44,818 nt of DNA from a bacterium (GTDB lineage: Bacteria > Vulcanimicrobiota > Vulcanimicrobiia > Vulcanimicrobiales > SCRA01), in assembly GCA_004297985.1 (NCBI GenBank), contig SCRA01000042.1, positions 1 to 44,818 on the forward strand. The letters are read 5' to 3'. Below, in pieces: positions 17,456 through 19,538 of this stretch. A program made the translations under genes and the position numbers. Each line of letters starts with the position of its first letter. Position 1 is the stretch's first letter. Under the pieces are notes generated by a model. It ran no database searches, was not told the DNA's origin, and worked only from the letters and a program-made list of their open reading frames with translations.

Positions 17456-17497
17456 AAAAATGTGAGACGCGCCCCCGCCGAAGCGGGGGCGCGTCTC
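17456..17497 (-). terminator. attenuator terminator in the leuA leader
   Basis: On the minus strand GAGACGCGCCCCCGC (17497-17483) pairs perfectly over 15 bp with GCGGGGGCGCGTCTC across a TTCG tetraloop. ACA and then TTTTT (17460-17456) follow. It lies between the leader peptide and the leuA ATG, so termination here would silence leuA. Confidence 0.85.
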
Positions 17498-17522
17498 TTA
17501 CTGTTGTTTAGATGCGCAGACC

Positions 17523-17585
17523 TCAGCCGCTTCGTCGTAAGACGTCGTCCATAAGGGGAAGTCGGCTAAGGAGCTGCAGGTGCAT
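17523..17585 (-). CDS. leuL: leucine-rich leader peptide of the leuA attenuator
   Basis: This 20-residue frame begins MHLQLLSRLPLMDDVL and ends at TGA. Six residues are leucine, including LQLL and LPL. It has no ribosome site because the ATG is predicted only about 4 nt from the transcription start. Bases 17534-17527 (CGAAGCGG, in the last codons) are complementary to CCGCTTCG in the terminator arm and loop (17486-17479). A ribosome stalled for lack of charged Leu-tRNA would leave this segment free to disrupt the terminator. A ribosome reaching the stop codon would cover it. Confidence 0.75.
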   Translation of the reverse strand: MHLQLLSRLPLMDDVLRRSG

Positions 17586-17595
17586 CTTACCGTGG

Positions 17596-17604
17596 AGTGT
17601 AGCA
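17596..17604 (-). promoter_or_regulatory. extended -10 promoter of leuL-leuA
   Basis: TGCTACACT on the minus strand is an extended -10 element (TGnTACACT). No good -35 lies 17 bp upstream, as is common for extended -10 promoters. Ten bases separate the -10 box from the leader ATG, so the transcript should be nearly leaderless. Confidence 0.6.
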
Positions 17605-17657
17605 CGCGCGGTCAAGGGTGATGTCGCCGTTCCTGCGATATCCCTCGCACGAGGAGG

Positions 17658-17686
17658 TTGACACGTCGAGTGCATCGGCGTACCAT
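17658..17686 (+). promoter_or_regulatory. promoter of ilvL-ilvBNC-leuCD
   Basis: A perfect TTGACA (17658-17663) and TACCAT (17681-17686) are spaced by 17 bp. The leader ATG comes 10 bases after the -10 box, the same geometry as on the leuA side. Confidence 0.75.
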
Positions 17687-17696
17687 GGCGACAACA

Positions 17697-17762
17697 ATGT
17701 CGTCACAGATTCTCGTCGTTAGCCTTATTCTTGTCCGCCTCGAATGGGGTCGGTGGGGATAG
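17697..17762 (+). CDS. ilvL: branched-chain amino acid leader peptide of the ilvB attenuator
   Basis: This 21-residue frame begins MSSQ. It continues ILVVSLILVRL and ends EWGRWG before TAG. Nine of the eleven middle residues are Ile, Leu or Val, the signature of an ilv-type leader peptide. There is no ribosome site, and the ATG lies about 4 nt from the predicted transcription start. A small hairpin (CTGTC/GACAG, 17766-17779) follows the stop codon directly. The last third of the frame contains the antiterminator strand. The structure predicts that stalling on scarce Ile, Leu or Val tRNA allows read-through into ilvB. Confidence 0.85.
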   Translation: MSSQILVVSLILVRLEWGRWG

Positions 17763-17820
17763 GCACTGTCTGACGACAGGATACGAAAGTAGAAGCCGCC
17801 TCGCCGACCAAGCGAGGCGG
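17735..17820 (+). promoter_or_regulatory. predicted antiterminator of the ilvB attenuator
   Basis: CCGCCTCG (17735-17742) can pair with CGAGGCGG (17813-17820), and GGTCGG (17748-17753) with CCGACC (17804-17809). The two helices are nested and exclude the terminator hairpin at 17793-17823. The 5' strand is the coding sequence of the last leader codons, so a ribosome at the stop codon would mask it. Confidence 0.7.
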
Positions 17821-17830
17821 CTTTGTTTTT
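17793..17830 (+). terminator. attenuator terminator in the ilvB leader
   Basis: AAGCCGCCTCGC (17793-17804) pairs over 12 bp with GCGAGGCGGCTT (17812-17823) across a seven-base loop. TGTTTTT follows. It lies between the leader peptide and the ilvB ribosome site. Confidence 0.9.
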
Positions 17831-17843
17831 CACTGGAGGTACT

Positions 17844-19538
17844 GTGGAGACCACCGGCTCGCGTCTGCTGCTCTCGGCCCTCGAGGCTCACGGGATCGAC
17901 GCCGTTTTCGGGTATCCCGGGGGCGCGATCATGCCGTTTTACGATGCGCTACCCCAAAGCGGGCTCACGCACTATCTCGTGCGCCACGAACAAGGGGCCG
18001 CCTTCGCCGCGGGGGCCTATGCGCGCACGACCGGGCGTCTGGGAGTCTGCGTCGCCACCAGCGGCCCGGGGGCTACGAACCTCGTGACGGGCCTGCTCGA
18101 CGCCATGATGGATAGCGCCCCGGTGCTGGCCATCACCGGTCAGGTGCGTTCGGCGCTCATGGGGACGGACGGATTTCAGGAAGCCGACGTGGTCGGCATC
18201 ACCAGCTCCTGCACCAAGCACAACGCGCTGGTGTCTCGGGCGGTGGAGATTCCCGTCGCCATCGAACGAGCGATCCGCATCGCCACCTCGGGGCGTCCGG
18301 GGCCCGTGCTCGTCGATATCACCACGGACGCGCTCAAGGAGCGTCTGACCTGGGAGGGTCCGCTGTGCCAAGCGGCGGAGCGCCCCCGCGTCTCGCAGGA
18401 TACCCATGACGTCGATCTCAAGGTACAGGCTACGGAGGCCATCGCGGCCTTGGCGCGCGCGGAGCGCCCCGTCATCATCGTCGGCGGCGGTACGCGCATC
18501 GCGAACGTGATCCAAGAGTTCCGGCGCTTCGCGGCGCTGATCGGTGCCCCGGTCGTCGCAACCATCACGGGTTTGGGAACGGCGGATCCCGGCGATTCAC
18601 GCTACCTTGGGATGTTCGGCATGCATGGCCACAAGGGGGCCAACCTCGCCGTGACGCGTGCCGACTGCATGCTCGCGCTGGGAATGCGCTTCGACGACCG
18701 CGTGACCGGGGACGTCGGCAAGTTCGGCCGGAATGCCACCATCATCCACTGCGACATCGATCCCACGGAGATCGGTAAGATCATTCCCGTGGATGTCCCC
18801 ATCGTGGGCGATCTCCACGAGACCATCGCCGCGCTCACGCAGGTGGCCGAAGTCGCGACGATGCCCTCCTACGAGTCGTGGCTGGCCGAGGTCGCGATGC
18901 TGCGGCGCCCTCTGCCGCCGGCGCGCCACGAGAACGACGAGCTCTCGGCCACCGATGTGCTCGACGCGCTCTCCGCGATGATGGAGCCGGGCACGGTCGT
19001 CACCACCGATGTCGGTCAGCATCAGATGTGGATGGCCCAACGCGTGCGTCTGGAGAGCAGCCGGGACTTTCTGACCTCGGCGGGCCTGGGCGCCATGGGA
19101 TTCGGCCTCCCCGCAGCGGTGGGTGCCCAGGTGGCGCGTCCTAACGATCCGGTGATTGCCGTCGTGGGAGACGGCGGATTCCAGATGACGATGCACGAGT
19201 TGGCAACGATTCGCCGCTACGAGCTTCCCGTCAAGATCGTAGTGATCGACAACCGGCATCTCGGTATGGTGCGCCAATGGCAAGAGCTGTTCTACGAACG
19301 TCGTATCGTGGCCACCGATCTCTACGACAACCCCGAGTTCTGCACGTTGGCTTCGGCTTACGGCATACGCTCCGCACGCGTCGAGCGCGCGGAGGACCTC
19401 CATCGTGCGCTGAGCGAGATGCTGGAGTCCGACAGCGCCTACCTGCTGCATTGCGCCTGCTTCCCGACGGAAAATTGCTTCCCGATGGTTCCCGCAGGCC
19501 GGCACATCGACGAGATGCTGGAGAGAACACCCGCATGA
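17844..19538 (+). CDS. ilvB: acetolactate synthase catalytic subunit
   Basis: This 564-residue thiamine-diphosphate enzyme makes 2-acetolactate or 2-acetohydroxybutyrate, the first common step to Val, Leu and Ile. It has [12 protein letters not shown], the active-site glutamate in [10 protein letters not shown], the FAD-region sequence in the middle and the thiamine motif GDGGFQM followed by VIDN. I chose the GTG at 17844 because GGAGG lies 5 nt before it. An in-frame TTG at 17823 lies in the terminator stem and is rejected. It is the first structural gene after the attenuator, and its stop overlaps ilvN as ATGA. Confidence 0.95.

Follow-up and report, generated by a model that had tools for sequence, protein, structure and literature searches.

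The leuA and ilvB genes point away from each other in the window, the whole stretch of 44,818 nucleotides of contig SCRA01000042.1 that was analyzed, and the question raised by this locus is how the short sequence upstream of leuA acts on the gene. The region between the two genes, bounded by leuA on the minus strand (17441 to 16275) and by the ilvB frame that opens at 17823 on the plus strand, contains two attenuator-like leaders back to back. The locus has the following features.

17615-17611, minus strand: TTGAC motif, identical in the four members of the genus (alignment)
17604-17596, minus strand: extended -10 element TGC-TACACT, putative promoter of the leuA leader, identical in the four members of the genus (alignment)
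17585-17523, minus strand: leader peptide frame MHLQLLSRLPLMDDVLRRSG and stop, from ATG 17585 to TGA 17523, with putative CTT control codons 6, 9, and 11; homologs MHLQLLGRLLLTDGVLRRSG, MRMQLLGRLLLTDGVIRRSG, and MHVQILSQLLLTNDALRRSG
17571-17558, minus strand: segment 1 (CCUUAGCCGACUUC), which carries Leu codons 6 and 9 and is the partner of segment 2 in minimum-energy folds and pair counts
17533-17521, minus strand: segment 2 (GAAGCGGCUGAGG), leader end and stop codon, invariant in the four genomes; its partner in the folds is segment 1 or, as 17534-17527, segment 3
17497-17464, minus strand: intrinsic terminator (3:4 hairpin), 15-bp stem, UUCG loop, tail ACAUUUUUG
17486-17479, minus strand: segment 3 (CCGCUUCG), 8-bp complement of 17534-17527, made up of the loop and the inner portion of the 5' arm of the terminator
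17460-17456, minus strand: U-run of the terminator, U5
17441-16275, minus strand: leuA, encoding a 2-isopropylmalate synthase of 388 aa that lacks the C-terminal LeuA_dimer domain (NCBIfam NF002086.0; Pfam PF00682 and PF22617 only)
17658-17824, plus strand: companion ilvB attenuator, with promoter TTGACA-17-TACCAT, leader frame MSSQILVVSLILVRLEWGRWG (ATG 17697), and terminator 17792-17824; ilvB-leader profile match at 17655-17841 (E 2.1e-8)
17823-19538, plus strand: ilvB, acetolactate synthase large subunit (TIGR00118.1, above cut-off); open frame as listed, with translation perhaps beginning a few codons downstream

The leuA product matches NF002086.0 with an E value of 1.5e-171 and 571.4 bits, above the cut-off of 532. 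Genes assigned to the ilvC, leuC, and leuD families of NCBIfam follow downstream of ilvB on the plus strand, and for an ilvN-like stretch of 76 aa, NCBIfam gave no match at 1e-10.

The enterobacterial attenuators of leuABCD, ilvBN, and ilvGMEDA combine Leu control codons in a leader peptide with competing hairpins and an intrinsic terminator, and the leuA leader described here has all of these in common with them. We consider it highly likely that leucine controls leuA through ribosome-mediated transcription attenuation and that the RNA involved is nearly leaderless. The basis is sequence, conservation, and fold predictions, from which we infer the start site, translation, stalling, and regulation. 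The RNA would start at about 17589 to 17585, at the leader ATG or immediately ahead of it, and the ribosome would load on its near-leaderless end. When Leu-tRNA is ample, the ribosome would reach the stop codon and cover segment 2, so that the UUCG terminator forms and leuA is off. When Leu-tRNA is scarce, the ribosome would stall at CTT codon 6, 9, or 11 and keep segment 1 beneath it; segment 2 would then pair with segment 3, the terminator would be delayed, and RNA polymerase would continue into leuA. In the absence of leader translation, both the 1:2 hairpin and the terminator would form.

The leucine-making gene leuA is preceded by a frame in which 6 of 20 codons specify leucine (CTG CTC CTT CTT CTT TTA in MHLQLLSRLPLMDDVLRRSG), as the sequence-only reading, an earlier inspection of this DNA, had stated, and the hairpin with a 15-bp stem, a TTCG loop, and a U-run that it had placed between leader and gene was also recovered, with U5 in the run. 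An ATG frame of 10 to 40 codons with at least six Leu codons occurred in 11 of 5,000 dinucleotide shuffles of 17605-17498. Leucine codon choice in the leader differs from that in nine neighboring genes: CTT makes up 3 of 6 Leu codons in the leader and 17 of 313 (about 5%) in the genes, and TTA 1 of 6 and 2 of 313. PMC1183508 deals with rare-codon choice in the leu leader and, in the relevant part, gives CUA as the rare Leu codon of the enterobacterial attenuator; the counterpart here is CTT.

Conservation of the leader in related genomes had been set beforehand as a test, and its outcome did not refute the attenuator reading. The relatives found were three more genomes of the same genus (G001, G002, and G003), with none from other genera of the family. 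All four genus members have kept the leader (MHLQLLGRLLLTDGVLRRSG in G003, MRMQLLGRLLLTDGVIRRSG in G001, and MHVQILSQLLLTNDALRRSG in G002, in addition to that of the window), including the frame, the stop, and the -10, and each of them uses CTT for Leu codons 6, 9, and 11. The alignment is also invariant in the TTGAC before the -10, in TAAGATG, and in the run CGACGAAGCGGCTGAGG, which corresponds to segment 2 and is unchanged even at third codon positions. The G002 leader lies at a contig edge and ends inside the terminator, where a second G002 contig begins. The terminator is present in G003 and G001 as well, and in G002, at the start of the leuA contig, its stem is shorter.

Leader codons 3, 5, 10, and 16 are not Leu in every member of the genus. 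As read from the four-genome alignment, leader substitutions have no third-position bias; thus, the leader peptide as such appears not to be under obvious selection, as expected of an attenuator. Leu16 (TTA) is Ile in G001. A ribosome stalled at Leu16 would mask segment 2, and so this codon cannot be a control codon in the attenuation model.

The conserved frame and CTT codons, found in four of four genomes, bear directly on the possibility that leucine is not sensed at all, i.e., that the hairpin is a plain terminator or a processing hairpin, the Leu-rich frame arose by chance, and leuA transcription starts inside or after the frame. The proposed promoter gives this possibility some footing. 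The extended -10 ahead of the frame that the sequence-only reading had noted is there, but it has no -35 at normal spacing, and no sigma-70-like hexamer pair was found on the minus strand; the one sigma-70-like promoter, at 17658, is on the plus strand. The conserved TTGAC (17615-17611) lies at an odd distance. As a -35, it would have a spacing of 8 to TACACT or 20 to TAAGAT, and it was not accepted; the hexamer TTGACC ends 8 nt before TACACT, too close to be its -35. This invariant, misplaced motif could be a protein-binding site, judging from the alignment. Against a plain terminator, there are only 14 nt from the U-run to the leuA ATG, which leaves no room for a promoter after the terminator, and like leaders recur in the order. 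We therefore regard a locus that does not sense leucine as highly unlikely.

The extended -10 is suitably placed for a start at or upstream of the leader ATG and is conserved in the four genomes, but a -35 is absent. The leader ATG follows the -10 by only 10 nt, a point that goes beyond the sequence-only reading, so the 5' untranslated region would be about 0 to 4 nt. With the start site inferred in this way, the leuA leader RNA would be nearly leaderless.

The competing structures are as follows. The last codons of the leader (CGAAGCGG, 17534-17527) had been proposed to pair with the hairpin arm and loop, and they are complementary to 17486-17479 at all eight positions; 6 of 5,000 leader shuffles contained eight bases in a row that were complementary to the terminator arm and loop. 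In addition, we found a protector pairing that the sequence-only reading had not noted, in which the Leu-codon segment (17571-17558) pairs with the leader end (17533-17521) to give the 1:2 hairpin. In free RNA, the minimum-energy structure contains both 1:2 and the terminator in all three full leaders. Leu codon 11 is unpaired in the 1:2 fold of the window. Across the four genomes, 95.6% of the pair cells of the 1:2 helix (columns 12-31 with 56-73) are retained, and the changes in segment 1 preserve most of the pairing, with C to U and A to G yielding G-U pairs. One reading of a GA-to-AG swap in G002 is that the bulged A has moved; the fixed-column count scores the pair as broken. The frame, the control codons, and the pairing are thus conserved in four of four genomes, although covariation itself was not significant among these close sequences (one both-sided change, not above shuffles, 142/500).

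Folds were also predicted with a ribosome mask, for which a footprint of 27 nt was the chosen value, in three genomes, with RNA extending to the terminator loop or at full length. For RNA that included the terminator arm and loop, stall states, with the A site at codon 5, 6, 9, or 11, were predicted to contain the 8-bp 2:3 helix in 10 of 12 cases, against none of nine free, codon-16, or stop states; the free state had 1:2 in 3 of 3. In G000, the window's genome, stalls at codons 5 and 6 make the segment 2 region pair differently with the terminator loop region and not as the 8-bp helix. By prediction, therefore, the mutually exclusive 1:2, 2:3, and 3:4 pairings track the position of the ribosome, and these folds give the alternatives expected of a leucine attenuator in most states, which supports the sequence-only reading and suggests that the leuA leader is a full three-hairpin attenuator.

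A simpler switch would have two states: a ribosome at the stop codon of the leader would just block segment 2, with no part for the 1:2 hairpin. Input and output would be as in the three-hairpin model, but RNA with an untranslated leader would read through. In the masked folds, 2:3 and 3:4 alone are enough for the switch, and the energy of 1:2 is not unusual against codon recoding: 69 to 689 of 1,000 recodings of the same peptide were as stable. Relative to dinucleotide shuffles, the fold energy upstream of the terminator stands out in G000 (z -5.1) and only weakly in G001 (z -1.6). The two-state version is opposed by the retention of the 1:2 helix across the four genomes and by its place in the minimum-energy fold of every full leader, and we consider it unlikely.

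In the three-hairpin model that we prefer, the terminator is within the minimum-energy structure in 21 of 21 full-length folds. It therefore wins at equilibrium, and antitermination must be kinetic. The standard attenuation model assumes such a kinetic advantage for read-through.

The switch type is well known, and the leuA leader adds to it a conserved and very probably genuine leucine attenuator of classical logic. It differs from the enterobacterial leu and ilv systems in its near-leaderless start, in having no Rfam leader match, and in the orientation of leuA, which diverges from an ilvB operon with its own attenuator. At gathering score, Rfam gives a single tRNA in the window, and at the leuA-leader locus there is no leader family up to E 0.5. 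Across 12 sources, three sub-threshold Rfam matches were obtained, none at a leucine leader family.

Leaderless leaders with Leu or Ile/Leu/Val codons before leuA and ilvB have been described in Streptomyces and Corynebacterium, as far as the relevant parts of PMC8079986 and PMC5784534 go. Those of Streptomyces lividans LeuL1 and IlvL and of the Corynebacterium diphtheriae ilvB leader precede the same genes as here. In the portion of the literature that bears on it, LeuL1 is without a typical terminator, whereas the leuA leader of the window has a strong one and a 2:3 antiterminator. For the actinobacterial leuA LEU element, the pertinent part of PMC1262725 describes Leu codons that pair with the Shine-Dalgarno region as a pseudoknot, with no obvious terminator; here, the Leu codons pair with the leader end in the predicted nested folds, and a strong terminator is present. 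These descriptions are the context for another possibility, that leucine acts on leuA through a different RNA device, e.g., a LEU element, or through a leader-binding protein. The leucine runs and leaderless RNAs of actinobacterial leuA leaders (PMC8079986 and PMC1262725, in the parts concerned) make it conceivable. The lack of a typical terminator in those leaders, as described there, against the strong one here, and the absence of any Rfam family at gathering score for the leuA leader of the window, make it highly unlikely, and attenuation by a translating ribosome remains the preferred reading.

According to the part of PMC2965389 (2010) that deals with their distribution, leader-peptide systems had, to its authors' knowledge, been demonstrated in Proteobacteria and Actinobacteria only, and that study added Firmicutes. 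Among the open-licence papers listed, no title or abstract opening dealt with this lineage (under a guessed name) or with a divergent leuA-ilvB attenuator pair. With the leuA leader, leucine attenuation of the leaderless, terminator-bearing type would extend to a lineage that is represented here by assembled genomes only.

The leuA leader had been described as a second, divergent attenuator with the logic of the ilvB side. The orientation of the genes agrees with this, but the two leaders of the window are not detectable copies of each other. As an inverted copy of the ilvB leader, the leuA leader was rejected: the local alignment score was 15, 495 of 1,000 shuffles were as good, and profiles gave no score. 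Comparison of leaders across the order (103 genomes) places the pair in a wider context. Window-type ilvB was found in 33 of 103 genomes (E <= 1e-100) and window-type leuA in 13 of 103 (E <= 1e-60). Seventy genomes are without an ilvB match at this threshold (38 of 58 among those of good quality), which may reflect widespread auxotrophy for branched-chain amino acids or the use of other enzymes.

Upstream regions were collected for 12 leuA and 32 ilvB genes (44 in total), omitting one leuA without a start and one ilvB match. A TTGACA-like/TAnnnT promoter followed by an Ile/Leu/Val-rich frame was present in 16 of the 44 regions, against 0.01 per shuffled set, and in all 16 the ATG is 7 to 13 nt after the -10, although 0 to 60 nt were permitted. 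Many ilvB and leuA genes of the order would likewise have leaderless leaders. Lacking a -35, the leuA leader of the window is not one of the 16. For 10 of the 32 ilvB regions, this first scan detected no leader, and in eight of these (L118, L122, L123, L127, L131, L135, L140, and L142) a profile built from 17 ilvB leaders of the other family matches further upstream. The same profile detects the ilvB leader of the window and, at E 1.2e-22, the leuA leader of G044.

Long leuA genes, which encode the LeuA_dimer domain, have Leu leaders of their own, among them MNGNARIALAILLLSGAPQA, together with terminators. Such leaders were seen in 8 of the 15 stretches fetched; the eighth (G087) was counted by leucine content, without a promoter match. 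The profile of these leaders adds G088, and the leaders of G026 and G082, which have short LeuA, match this family. The ilvB and long-leuA leader families share their build with the leuA leader of the window, i.e., an ATG 6 to 13 nt after the -10, a Leu or Ile/Leu/Val frame, and a terminator. The TTGACA-like promoter also belongs to the build of these families, and the leuA leader of the window is without a -35. However, whereas the ilvB leader of the window matches the ilvB profile, its leuA leader scores with neither, nor do the other leuA leaders of the genus when the terminator is left out; with it included, the G001 leader reaches E 0.0022 with the ilvB profile. Alignment of the G000 and G026 leuA leaders gave a score of 24 (4 of 1,000 shuffles as good), and profiles did not support a relation.

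In G044, the leuA leader (MLVTSLLLLALALVGRSASNRLGLTTA) and the ilvB leader (MLLTALLIVVLVLISRSSPNRLGLTTA) are near copies (L007 1331-1500 and L120 1329-1500), and where the ilvB core has Ile/Val codons, the leuA copy mostly has Leu or Ala. Their alignment score is 143, against a shuffle maximum of 33, which upholds the copy reading.

Divergent leuA and ilvB genes with a leader on each side are also found in five genomes of the other family (G005, G013, G073, G089, and G093). The divergent pair with two attenuators is thus present in both families of the order. A tentative reading of these comparisons is that leucine attenuators of leuA arose or were replaced several times in the order, in at least one case (G044) by copying of the ilvB attenuator and retuning from Ile/Val to Leu; that the divergent leaderless pair is a two-input module that has outlasted swaps of LeuA enzyme type and leader; and that the leader of the window evolved separately. 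The most unusual part of the system is comparative, namely the leader that was duplicated and recoded in another genus of the order, together with the divergent module of two attenuators. The set of related leaders allows a change in the amino-acid specificity of an attenuator to be traced codon by codon, and with two divergent attenuators, the shared Ile/Leu/Val steps would be controlled separately from the leucine-only step.

The LeuA_dimer domain binds leucine. Its profile (PF08502) has no match in the genome of the window; of the 103 genomes of the order, 21 contain the domain, as do 14 of 14 controls. Among the genomes with short LeuA, 12 of 13 are without PF08502, with G047 as the exception. 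A Leu attenuator as a stand-in for the missing allosteric domain was considered and rejected: genomes with the long, domain-bearing LeuA carry Leu leaders too, and the correlation of attenuator with missing domain therefore fails.

Other arrangements upstream of leuA were also seen in the order. In G007 and G052 (L009 and L008), a frame that begins 8 nt after a -10 (MPVVRIGRGCSLQNAIIIRPSRSPRPSGGGFCFNEE...) runs through the terminator, with its stop just before leuA; it may represent a different kind of control, or no leader. In G023 (L006, about 1370-1470), the gene upstream of leuA ends in EQWLSLSGTLLST and a stop codon right before a terminator, and the C-terminus of a full-length protein may serve there as the leader. 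This gene order is shared by G061 (L112), which has neither the tail nor the terminator.
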